Origin: Marinospirillum perlucidum
GTDB lineage: Bacteria; Pseudomonadota; Gammaproteobacteria; Pseudomonadales; Halomonadaceae
Assembly: GCF_003336805.1 (NCBI RefSeq)
Contig: NZ_QFWJ01000003.1
Coordinates: 62,001-126,000, forward strand
Direction: 5' to 3'
DNA: 64,000 nt
Position numbers and translations under genes: made by a program. The first letter of the stretch is position 1. Each line of letters starts with the position of its first letter. Of this stretch, positions 9,422 to 62,218 are shown one piece after another. Under the pieces are notes generated by a model. That model was not told the origin of the DNA. It did no database searches and saw only the letters and a list, made by a program, of their open reading frames with translations.

Positions 9422-9437
9422 GGAGATAAAAAATCAG

Positions 9438-9576
9438 GCAACCTCCGATTAACTATTGCGCTTGTTTATACTGCGTTGAAATTAAACTCAAAATGCTCAT
9501 TTACTCGCTGTAAATTCCGCTTTCTCGCTTAATTTCGCCTTGGCTAATCGGCGCTCATCACGTTAATCAGAAGTTC
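9438..9576. repeat. Small inverted-repeat element, copy 1 (MITE-like)
   Basis: About 139 bases that align over their whole length with 23395-23534 at roughly four-fifths identity by eye. The ends are imperfect inverted repeats: CAACCTCCGATTAAC on the left and GTTAATCAGAAGTTC on the right. The conserved middle includes CTCAAAATGCTCATTTAC and CCGCTTTCTCG. It is non-coding and has no transposase. The flanks (TCAG and CTTA) do not form an exact target duplication. It lies in the upstream region of the C2 gene. Confidence 0.75.
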
Positions 9577-9925: not shown

Positions 9926-10777
9926 ATGGGCGAAATCGTTTTATCTGCAAAAGTTACTCACGTTCCCACCATGCTGCTGTCCGAACAACCGGGCAAGCTT
10001 CAGGGCTGCCGCCAGCAGGCGATTGACGGTCATCGGGAAATCATGCGTCGTGCCCGTGAGCTGGGCGCGGATACCGTCGTTGTTCTGGACACCCACTGGC
10101 TGGTCAATGCCGGTTTCCATATCAACAGCAACCCGGTTTTCAAGGGCAAGTTCACCAGTCACGAATTCCCGCATTTCATCCAGAACCTGGAGTATGAATA
10201 CCAGGGGTGTCCTGAACTGGGTGATGCCATTGCCGAAAAGGCTACCGCCAAGGGCGTACACACCCTGTCTCACCAGGTAGAAACCCTGGATCTGGAATAC
10301 GGCACCCTGGTACCCATGCACTTTATGGAACCCGGCGATATGCCTATCGTTTCCATTGCTGCCTGGTGCACCGTTCACAACCTGCAGGATTCCCGCAAGC
10401 TGGGCGAAGCCATCCGTGAAGCGGTGGAAGCCAGCGATCGCAAGGTATTGCTGCTGGCCTCCGGTTCCCTGTCGCACAAGATCTGGGAAAACGAACTCTA
10501 CGCTGAAAATAATGGCACCTTCACCATTTCCCGCGAATTCAACCGTCAGGTGGATCTGCGCGTCCTCGAACTCTGGCAGCAGGGTGAAATTGCCACCTTC
10601 CTGAAGATGCTGCCCGAATATGCCCAGCACTGCTCCGGTGAAGGCGGCATGCACGATACCGCCATGCTGTTTGGTGCTCTGGGTTGGGATCAGTACACCG
10701 GCAAGGGTGAAGTCGTTGGTGAATACTTCCCCAGCTCCGGTACCGGCCAGGCTAATGTGATCTTCCCTGTTCAGTAG
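9926..10777 (+). CDS. hpaD: 3,4-dihydroxyphenylacetate 2,3-dioxygenase
   Basis: This class III extradiol dioxygenase opens the ring of homoprotocatechuate to 5-carboxymethyl-2-hydroxymuconic semialdehyde. The protein has 283 residues, the length of the E. coli C enzyme, and the LigB-type iron site can be placed: His12 in KVTHVP, His57 in LDTHWLVN and a Glu in CSGEGGMHD near residue 236. The GSLSHKIWE segment is also typical. The ATG at 9926 follows an AAGGTG site. It is the first gene of a plus-strand unit and is followed by a terminator-like hairpin. A second, divergent HpaD lies at 13574. Confidence 0.95.
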   Translation: MGEIVLSAKVTHVPTMLLSEQPGKLQGCRQQAIDGHREIMRRARELGADTVVVLDTHWLVNAGFHINSNPVFKGKFTSHEFPHFIQNLEYEYQGCPELGDAIAEKATAKGVHTLSHQVETLDLEYGTLVPMHFMEPGDMPIVSIAAWCTVHNLQDSRKLGEAIREAVEASDRKVLLLASGSLSHKIWENELYAENNGTFTISREFNRQVDLRVLELWQQGEIATFLKMLPEYAQHCSGEGGMHDTAMLFGALGWDQYTGKGEVVGEYFPSSGTGQANVIFPVQ

Positions 10778-13573: not shown

Positions 13574-14500
13574 ATGGGTGAACTGGCCCTGGCTGCAAAG
13601 ATTACACACGTTCCTTCCATGTATTTATCCGAGCTGGATGGCCCGCAAAAGGGTTTTCGTCAGGCCGCGATTGATGGCCACAAGGAGATCGGTCGCCGTT
13701 GCCGGGAACTGGGTGTGGATACCCTGGTGGTCTTTGATACCCACTGGCTGGTCAATGCCAGCTACCACATCAATTGTGCGCCTGAATTTGCCGGTAATTA
13801 CACCAGCAATGAATTGCCTCACTTTATTTCCAATATGCCCTTTGAATTCAGTGGCAACCCGCGTTTGGGACAATTGATTGCCGAGGAATGCCAGGCACAG
13901 GGCGTGGAAACCCTGGCGCATGACCAGACCTCCCTGGACCCTGAATACGGCACCCTGGTACCCATGCGTTATATGAATGAAGACCAGCATTTCAAGGTGG
14001 TCTCTATCTCGGCCATGTGCATGGCCCACTATTTAAATGACAGTGCCCGCTTGGGCTGGGCGCTGCGCCAGGCCGTGGAAAAGCACTACGATGGCAAGGT
14101 AGCCGTGCTGGCCAGTGGCTCCCTGTCGCATCGTTTTGCCCAGAATGGCCAGGCACCGGGATTTGCCACCAAGGTTTGGAGCCCTTTCTTGGAAAGGCTG
14201 GATCAGGATGTGGTGCGCATGTGGGAAGCGGCGGAATGGAAGGACTTTTGTGAAATGCTGCCTGAATATGCCGTCAAGGGTCATGGTGAAGGCTTTATGC
14301 ATGATACCGCTATGCTGTTGGGCTGCCTGGGCTGGTCGGAATATGATCAACCCGCCGAGGTGGTGACTCCCTACTTTGGCAGTTCGGGAACCGGGCAGAT
14401 CAATGCCATCTTCCCGGTTTCGCCCGTCAGTGGTGAGCAGGTGCCCGGCCCCCAGGCCTCGGTCAGTGACGCTTCGGCTGCCAGCGGCGGTCGCCTGTAA
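13574..14500 (+). CDS. Second HpaD-like extradiol dioxygenase
   Basis: A paralogue of the hpaD product at 9926: the same start (MGELALAAKITHVPSM), the same iron-ligand motifs (His in ITHVP, His in FDTHWLVN, Glu in GHGEGFMHD) and the same end (FGSSGTGQINAIFPV). It is 308 residues long because of a 25-residue Gly/Ser/Ala-rich tail absent from HpaD. The two differ widely in the middle, so this is not a recent copy. It may act on a related catechol (for example a side-chain variant) or be a second homoprotocatechuate dioxygenase with other kinetics. A GAGG site precedes ATG 13574. Confidence 0.9.
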   Translation: MGELALAAKITHVPSMYLSELDGPQKGFRQAAIDGHKEIGRRCRELGVDTLVVFDTHWLVNASYHINCAPEFAGNYTSNELPHFISNMPFEFSGNPRLGQLIAEECQAQGVETLAHDQTSLDPEYGTLVPMRYMNEDQHFKVVSISAMCMAHYLNDSARLGWALRQAVEKHYDGKVAVLASGSLSHRFAQNGQAPGFATKVWSPFLERLDQDVVRMWEAAEWKDFCEMLPEYAVKGHGEGFMHDTAMLLGCLGWSEYDQPAEVVTPYFGSSGTGQINAIFPVSPVSGEQVPGPQASVSDASAASGGRL

Positions 14501-15850: not shown

Positions 15851-16234
15851 ATGCCGCATTTTATCGTTGAGTATTCGGGCAATCTGCACGAACGCCTCGA
15901 ATTTCAAAGCCTCTTCAAGGAGCTGCACGAGTATGTCGTTTCCACCGGTGAATTTCCACTGGGTGGTGTGCGCAGCCGGGCTATCCGTTGTGATGATTTT
16001 CGGGTAGCCGATGGGCGTGAAGACTTCGCTTTCCTCAACCTGACCCTGAAAATCGGTCATGGTCGCGACCCTGATCTCAAAAAAGAGGTAGCCGAAGAAG
16101 TCTTTCGCATCCTCTGCAACTGGATGCAGCCCATCACCGATGAGAGCTACTGCCAGATTTCCTTTGAAATGACTGAACTGGACCCGGTTCTCAAATTCAA
16201 CAAGAACAACATCCATCCGCTGTTTAAAAAATAG
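15851..16234 (+). CDS. hpaF: 5-carboxymethyl-2-hydroxymuconate Delta-isomerase
   Basis: HpaF moves the double bond of 5-carboxymethyl-2-hydroxymuconate before decarboxylation. The protein has 127 residues and starts MPHFIVEYSGN, so removal of Met exposes the catalytic Pro1 typical of this tautomerase. The blocks GGVRSRAIRCDDFRVAD, LNLTLKIGHGRD and ISFEMTELDP match the family. The start at 15851 was chosen for the Pro after Met; an upstream TTG in frame has no support. It heads the operon with the TRAP transporter, linking transport with catabolism. Confidence 0.94.
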   Translation: MPHFIVEYSGNLHERLEFQSLFKELHEYVVSTGEFPLGGVRSRAIRCDDFRVADGREDFAFLNLTLKIGHGRDPDLKKEVAEEVFRILCNWMQPITDESYCQISFEMTELDPVLKFNKNNIHPLFKK

Positions 16235-16312: not shown

Positions 16313-17367
16313 AAGACAATAAAAACTACTCGGAGACACGCCATGAAAAATCTAGGCACTCAAGTCAAAACCCTGGCTGCTGCTTCCCTGCTGACCGTTG
16401 GTCTGGCCGGAACCAGCGTAGCTACCGCTTCTACCACCCTGGTTGTCGGCACCTGGATGCCACCCAGCAACCCCATGAATACCGTGGTTTGGCCTACTTG
16501 GGCTGAATGGGTCGAAGAAGCCACCGATGGCCGCGTTGAAGTCAAGATTGAACATGACCTGGGCCATCCACGCACCTACTTCCAACTGGTTGAAGATGGC
16601 GTTATCAATGCTGGCTGGAGCTACCACGGTTACATTCCCGGTCGCTTCAACCTGCCCATGGCCGTAGAACAACCCGGTATGGGTGTAAACGCCGAAGCGG
16701 CTTCTGCAGCCCTTTGGGACGTTCACCAGGAACACTTTGCCCAGGCCAATGAATACCAGGGTCTGGAGCTCCTGGCCCTGCTGACTCACGGTCCCGGCCA
16801 ACTGCATACCCGCGAGCCGATCGAAAATCTGGATGACCTGGAAAACAAGCGCATTCGTAGCGGCGGTGGTGTTCAGGCCGAACTGGCCGAGCGCCTGGAC
16901 GTGACGCCTGTTTCCGCACCCGGTTCACGTGTTTATGAAATGCTGCAACAGGGCGTTATCGATGGTGTTTTCATGCCTGCTCAAGAACAGCGCTCACTGC
17001 GTCTGAACGAAGTGGCCCCCAACCTGACTGTCTTCCCTGGTGGCATGTACCTGGGCAGCTTTGCCATGTTCATCGATCCCTACTTCATGGAATCCCTGGA
17101 CCCGGAAGATGCCGAAGCCATCCGCAGTGTTTCCGGTCGCCAGCTGTCCATCCTGGCCGGTCAAGCCTGGGACGAAGCCGACGAACAGGGTCTGGAATAC
17201 GCACGTGAAGAAGGCGTGAACGTGGTAGTTCTGGAAGAAGACGATGCCATGGTTCAGGAATTCCGCGAACTGACTGAAGGCATGGATCAACAGTGGATCG
17301 ACAGTGTGACTGCCGAGGGTGTTGATGCTGCCCAGGCACTGGAAGATCTGCGCCGCATTGCTCGTGA
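16313..17367 (+). repeat. Tandem duplication, first copy (contains dctP 1)
   Basis: About 1055 bases that recur at 17482-18536, offset by 1169. The repeat begins 30 bases before the dctP start codon (AAGACAATAAAAACTACTCG) and so includes the ribosome site, and ends in codon 342. The encoded proteins are identical up to that point and the frames read in other phases are also identical, so the DNA appears identical or almost so. Confidence 0.92.
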
Positions 17368-17386
17368 TTACCAAGAAAACAATTAA
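16343..17386 (+). CDS. TRAP transporter substrate-binding protein DctP, copy 1
   Basis: A periplasmic binding protein of 347 residues with a Sec signal peptide (MKNLGTQVKTLAAASLLTVG, cleavage near ATAS-TT). The mature part is DctP-like: WAEWVEEATDGRVEVKIEHDL, a conserved Arg region in the KRIRSGGG block, and GAPGSRVYEMLQQGVIDGVF-type segment. It binds the ligand for the DctQM permease encoded downstream. Its position between hpaF and the permease genes suggests HPA or a related aromatic acid as the ligand, which is inference. The end, RDYQENN, is the only part that differs from copy 2. The start at 16343 follows a CGGAG site. Confidence 0.93.
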   Translation: MKNLGTQVKTLAAASLLTVGLAGTSVATASTTLVVGTWMPPSNPMNTVVWPTWAEWVEEATDGRVEVKIEHDLGHPRTYFQLVEDGVINAGWSYHGYIPGRFNLPMAVEQPGMGVNAEAASAALWDVHQEHFAQANEYQGLELLALLTHGPGQLHTREPIENLDDLENKRIRSGGGVQAELAERLDVTPVSAPGSRVYEMLQQGVIDGVFMPAQEQRSLRLNEVAPNLTVFPGGMYLGSFAMFIDPYFMESLDPEDAEAIRSVSGRQLSILAGQAWDEADEQGLEYAREEGVNVVVLEEDDAMVQEFRELTEGMDQQWIDSVTAEGVDAAQALEDLRRIARDYQENN

Positions 17387-17415
17387 TAGCCCTGCAGGAT
17401 GCAAGGTGATTGTGC

Positions 17416-17447
17416 GGGCTAGTCTGAACCTTGATTCAGTCTAGCCC
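17416..17447 (+). other. Intercistronic hairpin between the two dctP copies
   Basis: GGGCTAG (17416-17422) with CTAGCCC (17441-17447), continued by CTGAA (17424-17428) with TTCAG (17435-17439), gives a 12-pair stem with one T-T mismatch and a 6-base loop. No T-run follows. Such stems behind binding-protein genes commonly protect the upstream message from 3' decay. It lies in the unique 114-base spacer between the duplicated segments. Confidence 0.65.
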
Positions 17448-17481
17448 AAATCAGCCGCCACAGCTGATAACTGCTGACGGC

Positions 17482-18536
17482 AAGACAATAAAAACTACTC
17501 GGAGACACGCCATGAAAAATCTAGGCACTCAAGTCAAAACCCTGGCTGCTGCTTCCCTGCTGACCGTTGGTCTGGCCGGAACCAGCGTAGCTACCGCTTC
17601 TACCACCCTGGTTGTCGGCACCTGGATGCCACCCAGCAACCCCATGAATACCGTGGTTTGGCCTACTTGGGCTGAATGGGTCGAAGAAGCCACCGATGGC
17701 CGCGTTGAAGTCAAGATTGAACATGACCTGGGCCATCCACGCACCTACTTCCAACTGGTTGAAGATGGCGTTATCAATGCTGGCTGGAGCTACCACGGTT
17801 ACATTCCCGGTCGCTTCAACCTGCCCATGGCCGTAGAACAACCCGGTATGGGTGTAAACGCCGAAGCGGCTTCTGCAGCCCTTTGGGACGTTCACCAGGA
17901 ACACTTTGCCCAGGCCAATGAATACCAGGGTCTGGAGCTCCTGGCCCTGCTGACTCACGGTCCCGGCCAACTGCATACCCGCGAGCCGATCGAAAATCTG
18001 GATGACCTGGAAAACAAGCGCATTCGTAGCGGCGGTGGTGTTCAGGCCGAACTGGCCGAGCGCCTGGACGTGACGCCTGTTTCCGCACCCGGTTCACGTG
18101 TTTATGAAATGCTGCAACAGGGCGTTATCGATGGTGTTTTCATGCCTGCTCAAGAACAGCGCTCACTGCGTCTGAACGAAGTGGCCCCCAACCTGACTGT
18201 CTTCCCTGGTGGCATGTACCTGGGCAGCTTTGCCATGTTCATCGATCCCTACTTCATGGAATCCCTGGACCCGGAAGATGCCGAAGCCATCCGCAGTGTT
18301 TCCGGTCGCCAGCTGTCCATCCTGGCCGGTCAAGCCTGGGACGAAGCCGACGAACAGGGTCTGGAATACGCACGTGAAGAAGGCGTGAACGTGGTAGTTC
18401 TGGAAGAAGACGATGCCATGGTTCAGGAATTCCGCGAACTGACTGAAGGCATGGATCAACAGTGGATCGACAGTGTGACTGCCGAGGGTGTTGATGCTGC
18501 CCAGGCACTGGAAGATCTGCGCCGCATTGCTCGTGA
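17482..18536 (+). repeat. Tandem duplication, second copy (contains dctP 2)
   Basis: The second copy of the 1055-base direct repeat described at 16313. Beyond 18536 the sequences diverge: this copy ends REYEAQN and runs into the dctQ ribosome site, while copy 1 ends RDYQENN. Confidence 0.92.
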
Positions 18537-18555
18537 GTATGAAGCTCAAAACTAG
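17512..18555 (+). CDS. TRAP transporter substrate-binding protein DctP, copy 2
   Basis: 347 residues, identical to copy 1 except for the last few residues (REYEAQN here). It has the same signal peptide, the same ligand-binding domains and the same ribosome site. It sits directly before dctQ (10 bases from stop to ATG) and so is the copy in the ancestral position; copy 1 looks like the added one. Two identical binding proteins would raise periplasmic binding capacity rather than widen specificity. A false duplication by assembly is possible, though the unique spacer and the different ends argue against a simple artefact. Confidence 0.93.
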   Translation: MKNLGTQVKTLAAASLLTVGLAGTSVATASTTLVVGTWMPPSNPMNTVVWPTWAEWVEEATDGRVEVKIEHDLGHPRTYFQLVEDGVINAGWSYHGYIPGRFNLPMAVEQPGMGVNAEAASAALWDVHQEHFAQANEYQGLELLALLTHGPGQLHTREPIENLDDLENKRIRSGGGVQAELAERLDVTPVSAPGSRVYEMLQQGVIDGVFMPAQEQRSLRLNEVAPNLTVFPGGMYLGSFAMFIDPYFMESLDPEDAEAIRSVSGRQLSILAGQAWDEADEQGLEYAREEGVNVVVLEEDDAMVQEFRELTEGMDQQWIDSVTAEGVDAAQALEDLRRIAREYEAQN

Positions 18556-18564
18556 GAGTTGAAA

Positions 18565-19083
18565 ATGTCATTTGTTGCCTGGTTGAAGGCTCATTATGAC
18601 GAGAAGGGGCCGGCCCGCTGGCTGGCCTTTCTACTCGAACTGATTGCAGCCGTCATGCTGATGGGGCTGATGCTCCTGACCTGCATCGATGTGGCCGGTC
18701 GTTACCTGTTCAATAATCCGGTACCGGGTGCAATTGAGCTGACCCAGATCGGCTTGGCGATCATGGTCTTTGCGGCCATGCCGGTAGTGACCTGGCGCGG
18801 TGGGCATATTGTGGTCGATCTGCTGGATCGCTATCTGCCCACGGGGTTGGTGAAATTCCTGTCCCTGGTGGCGGCCCTGGTGATGTCGGTTTCCTTCTAT
18901 TTTCTGGGAACCCGGATTTATGAGCTGGGCGAGCGCTCCATCCGTCGTGGTGAGGTGACCGAATTCCTGGGTATCTCCAGTGGCTACGTGGTGCAGTATA
19001 TTGCCCTGATGAGCTGGGCAACCGCAGCCGGGATGATCACCTACGGGATCTATCGCATCCTCTTTCAAGACCCCTCCAAATAG
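18565..19083 (+). CDS. TRAP transporter small permease DctQ
   Basis: 172 residues with four predicted membrane helices; the CIDVAGRYLFNNPVPGAIELTQ segment is the typical DctQ signature. It pairs with the large permease encoded next. The ATG at 18565 was chosen because an AGGAG sequence ends six bases before it; an in-frame TTG at 18559 overlaps that site. It is co-transcribed with both dctP copies and dctM. Confidence 0.93.
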   Translation: MSFVAWLKAHYDEKGPARWLAFLLELIAAVMLMGLMLLTCIDVAGRYLFNNPVPGAIELTQIGLAIMVFAAMPVVTWRGGHIVVDLLDRYLPTGLVKFLSLVAALVMSVSFYFLGTRIYELGERSIRRGEVTEFLGISSGYVVQYIALMSWATAAGMITYGIYRILFQDPSK

Positions 19084-19104: not shown

Positions 19105-20433
19105 ATGTCAGTCTTGCTGATCGGCTTTGCTGTTCTTCTTTTCCTGATCGTATTCGTGCGGATGCCGATCGCATTCGCCATGGGCTTGGTGGGCTTTTTT
19201 GGCTTTGCTGTCATGATGGGGTTGAGCTGGGACAATCTGGATTCCTATCGTTGGGTCGGGGTTTTGTCCATGGCTTCCAACCGGGTGGTCAGCACCGTCC
19301 AGAACTACAGCCTGTCAGTGATCCCCCTGTTTATTCTGATGGGCAACCTGGTGATGCGCTCCGGGTTGTCGCATGAACTCTATCAAGCTTCCAATGCCTT
19401 TTTGGGACACCGCAAGGGTGGCCTGGCCATGGCTACGGTCGTCGCCTGTGGTGGTTTCTCGGCCATCAGTGGTTCCAGCCTGGCGACTTCAGCGACCATG
19501 TCCCGCGTGGCCATGCCGCCTATGCGCAAGTATGGCTACAATGATTCCCTGGCTGCTGCCACTATCGCTGCTGGTGGTTCCCTGGGTATCCTGATTCCAC
19601 CCAGTGTGATCCTGGTGGTTTATGGTTTGCTGACTGAAACCAGTATTCGTGAACTCTTTGCTGCCGGTTTCCTGCCCGGTCTTCTGGGTGTGGCCCTTTA
19701 TCTGGCGGCCGTTCGTTATGTGGTCTGGCGCAATCCGGCGGCTGGTCCTGCCGGTGAAAAAACCAGCTGGAAAGAACGCTTTCAGGCCCTGCGTGGTGTC
19801 ATCGGTGTTTTGGGTCTTTTCGTTCTGGTGATGGGTGGTATCTACCTGGGGGTTTTCACTCCCACGGAAGCAGCCGGTATCGGTGCCGGGGGCGCTTTTG
19901 TGATTGCCCTGCTGCGTAAATCCCTGACCTGGAGCAGCCTCTTTGACACCCTTTCGGATACAGCACGTACTTCGGTCATGCTTTTTGCCGTGGTCATCGG
20001 TGCCCTGATTTTCTCCGACTTTGTTAACCGGGCCGGTCTACCCGACATGCTGCTGGGTTTTGTCACCTCCCTGGATGTTGCTCCTATTGTGGTCATCCTG
20101 GCAATTATGGGGATTTACCTGCTGCTGGGTATGGTCTTTGAGAGCCTGTCGATGATGCTTTTGACCATCCCCATTTTCTATCCGGTTGTTGCCAGCCTGG
20201 GCTTTGATCTGGTCTGGTTCGGCATTGTGGTAGTGATTGCCATCGAAATCAGTCTGATAACGCCACCGGTGGGGATGAATGTCTTCGTACTCAGTGCCGT
20301 TATACGCGATATCAAGACAGGCACTATCTTCAAGGGGGTGACTCCCTTCTGGTTTGCCGACATTATCCGTTTGCTGCTGGTGCTTTTCGTGGCCCAGATA
20401 GCACTTTTCCTGCCCGAACTCCTGTATCGCTAG
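19105..20433 (+). CDS. TRAP transporter large permease DctM
   Basis: 442 residues with about twelve membrane helices. DctM features include IPLFILMGNLVMRSGLS, the ACGGFSAISGSSLATSATMS segment and ITPPVGMNVFVL near the end. It is the channel-forming, sodium-coupled subunit that works with DctP and DctQ. It ends 47 bases before a UspA gene, as in several TRAP operons such as teaABCD of Halomonas. Confidence 0.94.
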   Translation: MSVLLIGFAVLLFLIVFVRMPIAFAMGLVGFFGFAVMMGLSWDNLDSYRWVGVLSMASNRVVSTVQNYSLSVIPLFILMGNLVMRSGLSHELYQASNAFLGHRKGGLAMATVVACGGFSAISGSSLATSATMSRVAMPPMRKYGYNDSLAAATIAAGGSLGILIPPSVILVVYGLLTETSIRELFAAGFLPGLLGVALYLAAVRYVVWRNPAAGPAGEKTSWKERFQALRGVIGVLGLFVLVMGGIYLGVFTPTEAAGIGAGGAFVIALLRKSLTWSSLFDTLSDTARTSVMLFAVVIGALIFSDFVNRAGLPDMLLGFVTSLDVAPIVVILAIMGIYLLLGMVFESLSMMLLTIPIFYPVVASLGFDLVWFGIVVVIAIEISLITPPVGMNVFVLSAVIRDIKTGTIFKGVTPFWFADIIRLLLVLFVAQIALFLPELLYR

Positions 20434-20480: not shown

Positions 20481-20975
20481 ATGCTGTCCGATTTTCGCAA
20501 GATTCTCTATGTGTCTGATCTGGAAGCTGGCTCACGGCCAGCCTTCCGGGCTGCGGTGAGTCTCTGCAGTCACTATGATTCCAAGATCACCTACCTCCAT
20601 GTCATCGAGTCCCTCTCGGGAACAGCTCGCAGCGTATTGAGTAACATGATGGAAAAGCAGGATATGGAAGGTATGCTGCAGGAAGGCATCGCCAAGCTGA
20701 GAGACAAGGTGGCCGGTCGCCTGGAGCGCTTTTGCCAGCAGGAGCTGGAAGACCAGGACAAGCTGACACCGGAACAGGTCGATGTGCGGGTTGAAGAGGG
20801 CACGCCCTGGAAGGCAATTCTGCGGGTCGCAGATGAAATGGATGCGGATGTGATTGTGATGGGAACGCGCAAGCATTCCACCCTGGGTGAGATTTTTGTC
20901 GGCTCAACGGCGGGGAAAACCCTGCATCACTCCAAACGCCCGATTCTGATCGTGCCCCTGAATGATGAAGAATAA
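20481..20975 (+). CDS. Universal stress protein UspA family, TRAP-associated
   Basis: 164 residues with one Usp domain: the start FRKILYVSDLEAGSRPAF, the THKI-type strand, and the nucleotide-binding end VIVMGTRKHSTLGEIFVGSTAGKTLHHSKRPILIVPL with the G-2x-G-9x-G(S/T) pattern of ATP-binding members. It has a strong AGGAGG site and lies at the end of the hpaF-dctPPQM operon. TeaD, a Usp protein in the ectoine TRAP operon of Halomonas, restrains its transporter; a similar regulatory role here is inference. Confidence 0.88.
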   Translation: MLSDFRKILYVSDLEAGSRPAFRAAVSLCSHYDSKITYLHVIESLSGTARSVLSNMMEKQDMEGMLQEGIAKLRDKVAGRLERFCQQELEDQDKLTPEQVDVRVEEGTPWKAILRVADEMDADVIVMGTRKHSTLGEIFVGSTAGKTLHHSKRPILIVPLNDEE

Positions 20976-23381: not shown

Positions 23382-23394
23382 ACCGGACTCCTAG

Positions 23395-23534
23395 GAAACC
23401 TCTGATTAACTACTGTGCTTGGTGATACTGCGTTGAAATTGACCTCAAAATGCTCATTTACTTTATGTAAACTCCGCTTTCTCGGCCAATTTCGCCTTGC
23501 TTGACCTGCGCTCGTGACGTTGATCGGAGGCATC
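23395..23534. repeat. Small inverted-repeat element, copy 2, flanked by CTAG (MITE-like)
   Basis: 140 bases related to 9438-9576. The left end GAAACCTCTGATTAAC and the reverse complement of the right end GATGCCTCCGATCAAC agree at 12 of 16 positions. The element is flanked on both sides by CTAG (23391-23394 and 23535-23538), as expected for a 4-base target duplication. The right-hand CTAG supplies the hpaA stop codon, and the left end lies 13 bases before the GTG of the downstream membrane-protein gene, so the element forms the spacer between the two genes. Confidence 0.82.
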
Positions 23535-26162: not shown

Positions 26163-26945
26163 TTAGTAGTTGTCGCCGTAGTATTCCTGCTCGCTGACCA
26201 TGCGGGTCTCGAGAGAGCAGACATCTTCAATTGAACAGACGATGGTGTCGCCTGGCTGGCAGTCGACGATGCCGTGAGGCGTGCCGGTGCAGATCATGTC
26301 GCCAGGATTCAGGGTCATGATCTTGCTGAGGTACTCAATGATGAAGGGCACATCAAAGATCATGTCCTTGGTGGAACCATCCTGGGTCAGCTTGCCATTG
26401 ACGGTGGTGGTCAATTTGAGGGCATTGGCATCAGGGATGTCAGCGGTATCCACGATCCAGGGCCCCATGGGCAGCAGGGAATCGCGGCTTTTGACGCGCA
26501 GGTTGGGGCGGTAGTAGTTTTCCAGGTAGTCGCGAATGGCAAAGTCATTGCAGACGGTATAACCCGCGACGTAATCCAGTGCGTCTTCACGCTTGATGTT
26601 CTTGCCGCTCTTGCCAATGACCGCGACCAGTTCGCACTCATAGTGCTGGTAGTCGATGTTGTCAGGGCGATAGCTGACCTGCTTGTGGCCGGTCAGGGTG
26701 TTGGCATGCTTGATGAAGACCAGAGGCTCCTTGGGCGGCTCGAAAGCCAGCTCGGTGGCATGGTCGGCATAGTTGATGCCCAGCGCGAAAATGGTGCCGG
26801 GTTCCTTGACCGGGGGCAGCCAGGTGATCTGATCGGAATCCAGGCTCACATCCAGTTGCTCGCCTTCACTGGTGGTGATGCGATCCTGGCCATCGATGGT
26901 GATGTCCAGTTCGCGGCCATCAAAAAGTATGCGTGCGTGTCTCAT
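26163..26945 (-). CDS. hpaG2: HPA degradation isomerase/decarboxylase, HpaG2 half
   Basis: 260 residues of the fumarylacetoacetate hydrolase fold, matching the C-terminal half of the E. coli HpaG bifunctional protein: ALGINYADHATELAFEPPKEPLVFIKHANT, the metal-ligand segment YECELVAVIGK, GYTVCNDFAIRDY and MTLNPGDMICTGTPHG. The metal site acids (E-x-E type in ECELVAV and the later D) are present. It acts with HpaG1 to decarboxylate and isomerise the HPA intermediates to the substrate of HpaH. It lies 3 bases after hpaG1. Confidence 0.92.
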   Translation of the reverse strand: MRHARILFDGRELDITIDGQDRITTSEGEQLDVSLDSDQITWLPPVKEPGTIFALGINYADHATELAFEPPKEPLVFIKHANTLTGHKQVSYRPDNIDYQHYECELVAVIGKSGKNIKREDALDYVAGYTVCNDFAIRDYLENYYRPNLRVKSRDSLLPMGPWIVDTADIPDANALKLTTTVNGKLTQDGSTKDMIFDVPFIIEYLSKIMTLNPGDMICTGTPHGIVDCQPGDTIVCSIEDVCSLETRMVSEQEYYGDNY

Positions 26946-26948
26946 GGT

Positions 26949-27617
26949 TCAGGCCCCTCCCAGCGTGTTTTTCAGGGTGCCGACACCCTCGATGCTTGCT
27001 TCTACCTGGTCGCCCTGGGCAACCGGCACTCGATCACCGGCAAAGCCGACGGCGATGATTTCACCCGGTTGCAGGGTCATGATGTAGGAGATCTTGCTGA
27101 TCAACTCGGCGACACTGCGTTCCATCTGGCTCAGGTCAAAACGGCTTTTTTCTTCGCCCTTGACGCTCAGGGTCACGGTCAGGGCATCGGGGTTGCTGAT
27201 TTTGTCAGCAGGGACGATTTCAGGACCGACCGGTGCAGTGGTATCCAGGCATTTGCCCTTGATGTCAGGGCGGTAGTAGCTTTCTTCAGGCAGGGAAAAA
27301 TCACCCACCAGGGTGTAGCCACCGACATACTGCAAGGCTTCTTCGGGGCTGACGCGGCAGGTTTCCTTGCCGAGCACCACGCCCAGGCTGGCACCGACGA
27401 CCATGGATTCCACGGCCTGGCCTGAAAAATCCTTGGCCCATTCGATGGTGGCACCATCGGTGTTCCAGGTATTGCGTGGCTTGTAGTAGAGAACCGGCTG
27501 GGTGGGCGGCTTCTTGTAGGGCGCTTCGTTGAACGTCCCTTCCAGGGCAGCAAGCTGCTTCTTGTCGTTCAGGGCGACACAGATCAGTTTGCTGTTAACC
27601 AATGTCTTTTTAGTCAT
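26949..27617 (-). CDS. hpaG1: HPA degradation isomerase/decarboxylase, HpaG1 half
   Basis: 222 residues, matching the N-terminal half of fused HpaG: VALNDKKQLAALEGTFNEAPYKKPPTQPVLYYKPRNTW, then GASLGVVLGKETCRVSPEEALQYVGGYTLVGDFSLPEESYYRP and the end LQPGEIIAVGFAGDRVPV. In E. coli the two halves are one polypeptide of about 429 residues; here they are separate genes 3 bases apart, as also in several other bacteria. The start (ATG 27617) lies 30 bases behind hpaI. Confidence 0.92.
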   Translation of the reverse strand: MTKKTLVNSKLICVALNDKKQLAALEGTFNEAPYKKPPTQPVLYYKPRNTWNTDGATIEWAKDFSGQAVESMVVGASLGVVLGKETCRVSPEEALQYVGGYTLVGDFSLPEESYYRPDIKGKCLDTTAPVGPEIVPADKISNPDALTVTLSVKGEEKSRFDLSQMERSVAELISKISYIMTLQPGEIIAVGFAGDRVPVAQGDQVEASIEGVGTLKNTLGGA

Positions 27618-62033: not shown

Positions 62034-62109
62034 GGGTCGTTAGCTCAGTTGGTAGAGCAGTTGGCTTTTAACCAATTGGTCGCAGGTTCGAATCCTGCAC
62101 GACCCACCA
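62034..62109 (+). tRNA. tRNA-Lys (anticodon TTT), copy 1
   Basis: 76 bases with CCA. The acceptor arm GGGTCGT pairs with ACGACCC, the anticodon loop is CTTTTAA giving TTT, and the T-arm is GCAGGTTCGAATCCTGC. Its sequence is the same as that of copy 2. Confidence 0.97.
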
Positions 62110-62142: not shown

Positions 62143-62218
62143 GGGTCGTTAGCTCAGTTGGTAGAGCAGTTGGCTTTTAACCAATTGGTCGCAGGTTCGA
62201 ATCCTGCACGACCCACCA
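62143..62218 (+). tRNA. tRNA-Lys (anticodon TTT), copy 2
   Basis: 76 bases, identical to copy 1, 33 bases behind it and transcribed from the same promoter. Confidence 0.97.

Follow-up and report, generated by a model that had tools for sequence, protein, structure and literature searches.

Gene conversion as the probable source of identity between two tandem dctP genes in Marinospirillum perlucidum

Concerted evolution by gene conversion is well described for bacterial paralogues, with tufA and tufB as one example (PMC6053082). TRAP transporters (DctPQM) have also been described, among them TarPQM, an aromatic-acid example (PMC5812351). The literature that we searched contained no report of tandem dctP genes subject to conversion. 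Here, we describe a tandem pair of dctP genes in a window of the Marinospirillum perlucidum genome, that is, the whole 64-kb stretch of DNA that was analysed, which is without any N. The features of the locus are collected in Table 1.

Table 1. Positions of the dctP pair and of its neighbours, numbered along the window.
Feature	Position	Strand	Basis
hpaF-like 5-carboxymethyl-2-hydroxymuconate isomerase gene; upstream neighbour conserved in hpa-linked relatives	15851..16234	+	
Identical repeat unit, copy 1 (30 bp leader and gene body)	16313..17367	+	
dctP copy 1, TRAP solute-binding protein, 347 aa, tail ...RDYQENN	16343..17386	+	
Unique 114-bp spacer, including the copy 1 tail; chance-level matches only in related loci	17368..17481	+	
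Strong hairpin between the copies, GGGCTAGTCTGAA-CCTTGA-TTCAGTCTAGCCC, -18.3 kcal/mol, no T run after it	17416..17447	+	
Identical repeat unit, copy 2	17482..18536	+	
dctP copy 2, 347 aa, tail ...REYEAQN, closer to single-copy orthologue tails	17512..18555	+	
dctQ, small TRAP permease subunit	18565..19083	+	
dctM, large TRAP permease subunit	19105..20433	+	Pfam
Universal stress protein gene; conserved downstream neighbour	20481..20975	+	

DctP was recognised as a solute-binding protein by PF03480 (E 1e-25; 90.7 bits against a curated cut-off of 23.4), and matches to DctQ (PF04290) and DctM (PF06808) follow downstream of the pair in the usual order. One dctQ and one dctM follow the two dctP genes within an hpa cluster. 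The neighbours comprise two hpaD genes (3,4-dihydroxyphenylacetate dioxygenase), the hpaF-like isomerase gene, hpaE and hpaG, and the surroundings were therefore assigned to a 4-hydroxyphenylacetate (homoprotocatechuate) degradation cluster. Given this conserved neighbourhood, the substrate of DctP is probably 4-hydroxyphenylacetate or a related aromatic acid. The closest solved chain to DctP by sequence is 4p56 (E 2e-62), which we take to be a mandelate-binding protein, in keeping with an aromatic acid as the substrate. Two side observations concern the same cluster. The hpaD paralogues (9926-10777 and 13574-14500) both score over the HpaD cut-off, and in M. minutulum and Nitrincola the pair is likewise present at this spacing. 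The hpaG gene is apparently split into two adjacent genes (26163-26945 and 26949-27617), the first of which matches the HpaG C-terminal model.

Direct comparison of the two repeat units bore out the 1055-base direct repeat, with ribosome site and nearly the whole gene, that the original prediction had described: 1055 of 1055 bases are identical, which is beyond chance. Each unit consists of a 30-base leader including the ribosome site, followed by dctP minus its last six codons. The two proteins differ in their last six residues only (DYQENN in copy 1 and EYEAQN in copy 2). Six or seven differing codons had been proposed; six is correct and the seventh is not, since the R that precedes both tails is common to both copies. 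The stop of copy 1 and the start of copy 2 are separated by 125 bp, and the unique 114-base spacer that had been noted between the repeat units was recovered as a single-copy sequence in the genome. No further copy was found in the 3.07-Mb assembly (24 contigs). The same genome carries three other DctP-family genes besides the pair. The leader (16313-16342 and 17482-17511; ACAATAA ... GGAGACACGCC) is conserved throughout Marinospirillum and in part in Nitrincola, and may possibly be a regulatory or promoter element. A promoter scan at the dctP pair found none.

In a simple fresh tandem duplication, the sequence between the copies repeats an outer flank. The spacer is unlike both the upstream flank of copy 1 and the downstream flank of copy 2, and the pair is therefore no simple fresh tandem copy. 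The spacer has no 14-mer in common with the rest of the window and no second site in the genome beyond the repeat itself. A search for its source in related loci returned only matches of 11-16 bases, which is chance level. When the spacer was shuffled 200 times, all but 1 of the shuffled sequences folded less well. We guess that its hairpin could end or protect a dctP1 message. No T run follows the hairpin, which is at most a candidate terminator. Rfam returned nothing above its threshold in the region of the dctP pair.

The two tails are of equal length, stop at the same codon, and have a tyrosine and the final asparagine in common. When random window sequence was placed in the tail position, 0 of 20,000 sequences matched the copy 2 tail as well as the copy 1 tail does, and the tails are therefore considered homologous on the basis of a short stretch of 19-21 bases, corresponding to about six residues and the shared stop position. 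About 1 in 10,000 random window sequences scored as well against the set of tails from the genus. With the tails taken as homologous, the 1074 aligned bases contain 9 differences, every one of them within the final 19 (P 1.8e-17 if divergence were even). Gene conversion is expected to leave a sharply bounded tract of identity next to homologous sequence that has diverged, and this is the pattern that was found (0 of 1055 against 9 of 19). The copy 1 tail is alike at 12 of 21 bases to that of copy 2 and at 10-12 of 21 to those of other species; the copy 2 tail is alike at 13-17 of 21 to those of single-copy orthologues. We considered possible donors for the copy 1 tail and set them aside. The other three dctP genes of the same genome end differently, and the resemblance to the G033 tail (GATTACCAAGA) covers too few bases for a transfer to be claimed.

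From these comparisons of sequence, we consider it probable (roughly 0.7) that an older dctP pair was recently made identical by gene conversion, not freshly copied. Gene conversion is favoured because diverged homologous tails adjoin an identical body and because the spacer repeats neither outer flank. An older tandem pair would have stood upstream of one dctQM permease, and homologous recombination spanning the leader and almost the entire reading frame would recently have made the copies identical. The conversion tract would have left out the last six codons, in which the old differences would persist. We infer that one or more conversion events made the bodies identical. The original prediction had left the choice between a very recent duplication and continued conversion to keep a double dose of binding protein. 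The diverged tails and the spacer unlike its flanks support conversion, but its continuation does not follow, as one recent event gives the same picture. The identical body itself carries no information on the age of the pair.

Copy number in relatives, a check that had been suggested with the prediction, was compared across species. The closest Marinospirillum and Nitrincola have one dctP here: a single hpa-linked gene was found in M. minutulum, in a second congener (G001) and in both Nitrincola species, and the order hpaF-dctP-dctQ-dctM-usp recurs in all four. Other members of the genus, with one genome per species, carry a single hpa-linked dctP or lack it. Two diverged dctP genes of the same subfamily, the state expected before conversion, were found in no relative within the genus. 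As far as shown, the doubling of dctP is confined to this lineage among the genomes compared. In the protein tree, both window copies fall within a clade of Marinospirillum and Nitrincola. The window copies are 100% alike, whereas their DNA is about 70% alike to that of orthologues. Because each of the relatives carries one copy, the comparison does not place the duplication before the species split.

The single-copy state of the nearest relatives also suits a very recent tandem duplication of dctP without any conversion, in which the spacer and the copy 1 tail came from an illegitimate join or a small insertion. The 1055 bp without a difference place the divergence of the body below 0.3% at 95%, which speaks for this account, and the unique, hairpin-rich spacer could mark a rearrangement junction. 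However, the new tail would then have to mimic a DctP tail by chance, at the frequency of 0 in 20,000 given above, and stop at the same codon; otherwise it must derive from a dctP absent in this genome. We regard a fresh duplication as unlikely on these grounds.

Much less probable still is an assembly artefact, in which only one copy is real, or two are and a collapsed consensus masks minor differences between them. The assembly is a draft in 24 contigs, the repeat is longer than short reads, and assembly from such reads could conceal a third copy or minor internal differences. Against this, two distinct sequences adjoin the repeat on its left and two on its right, and the spacer connects a right junction to a left one; therefore, any linear path holds at least two copies. 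The single copy that long reads had been expected to reveal in the case of an artefact is thus improbable, each copy having its own unique junctions.

Other repeats were observed in the window. An interspersed repeat with inverted ends (TCYGATTAAC type) and a length of about 145 bp is represented twice, at 9436-9571 and 23393-23528; it has 46 matches and about 40 copies across the genome and looks like a MITE family. In addition, two identical 76-bp tRNA-like genes stand in tandem at 62034-62109 and 62143-62218, with a TTT anticodon as read by eye.

In Marinobacterium sediminicola, halophilum and weihaiense, the corresponding position between hpaF and the gene for the stress protein is taken up by a doubled cassette (PQM-PQM). 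That the window pair is the remnant of such an old doubled dctPQM, homogenised after the loss of one dctQM, has this shared position in its favour but is the least credible account of all, because Nitrincola and the other Marinospirillum species with the locus have one PQM, the window dctP falls outside the clade of Marinobacterium copy 2, and the spacer holds no recognisable dctQ or dctM remains. The second dctP of Marinobacterium forms an older, separate branch. In the three Marinobacterium genomes, dctP is 72-76% alike within a genome versus 77-86% between species, the pattern that an old duplication would give, whereas dctM is 87-91% alike within a genome versus 85-87% between species. In trees, the dctM genes pair by species, with uneven IQ-TREE support (100/90 in halophilum, 94.8/96 in weihaiense, 62/57 in sediminicola), and the dctP genes group by copy. 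In these genomes, it appears that the permease gene was homogenised and that the binding protein diverged. From the grouping of dctM by species and of dctP by copy, we infer that conversion acts on TRAP duplicates at this same locus. The regions concerned in this concerted evolution of part of the doubled cassette are L022 9581-14025, L023 9581-14020 and L026 9494-13945.

Solute-binding proteins commonly outnumber their permeases, and a second dctP may therefore plausibly raise the amount of binding protein per permease. A stronger version holds that selection keeps the dctP copies identical by repeated conversion, with binding protein outnumbering the one permease and a separate dctP1 message terminated or stabilised by the hairpin; the sister genus Marinobacterium would do the reverse at this locus, with a homogenised permease and diverging binding proteins. 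We consider this version speculative and quite doubtful.

The dctP pair is real and largely explained, and the mechanism is ordinary. It is a small and clear example, as the tract ends point to conversion, not youth, as the likely origin of the identity. The contrasting state of the locus in Marinobacterium offers a natural experiment on which components of a tripartite transporter stay uniform and which may specialise. The nearest parallel in arrangement is G014, from another genus of the same family, in which two dctP genes stand directly upstream of one dctQM; two copies are also present in G059. However, the G014 copies are old and diverged, with about 71% protein identity within G014 versus 91% between G014 and G059, and their DctP belongs to a different subfamily, at about 42% to the window DctP. 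As in known TRAP systems such as TarPQM, DctP, DctQ and DctM are all recognised by Pfam and stand in the usual order, but here there are two near-identical binding-protein genes per permease and the aromatic substrate is putative. Unlike tufA and tufB, the genes form a tandem solute-binding-protein pair in one species only. Like them, they would be paralogues whose similarity exceeds what their age predicts, and in which differences persist beyond the ends of the converted tract.
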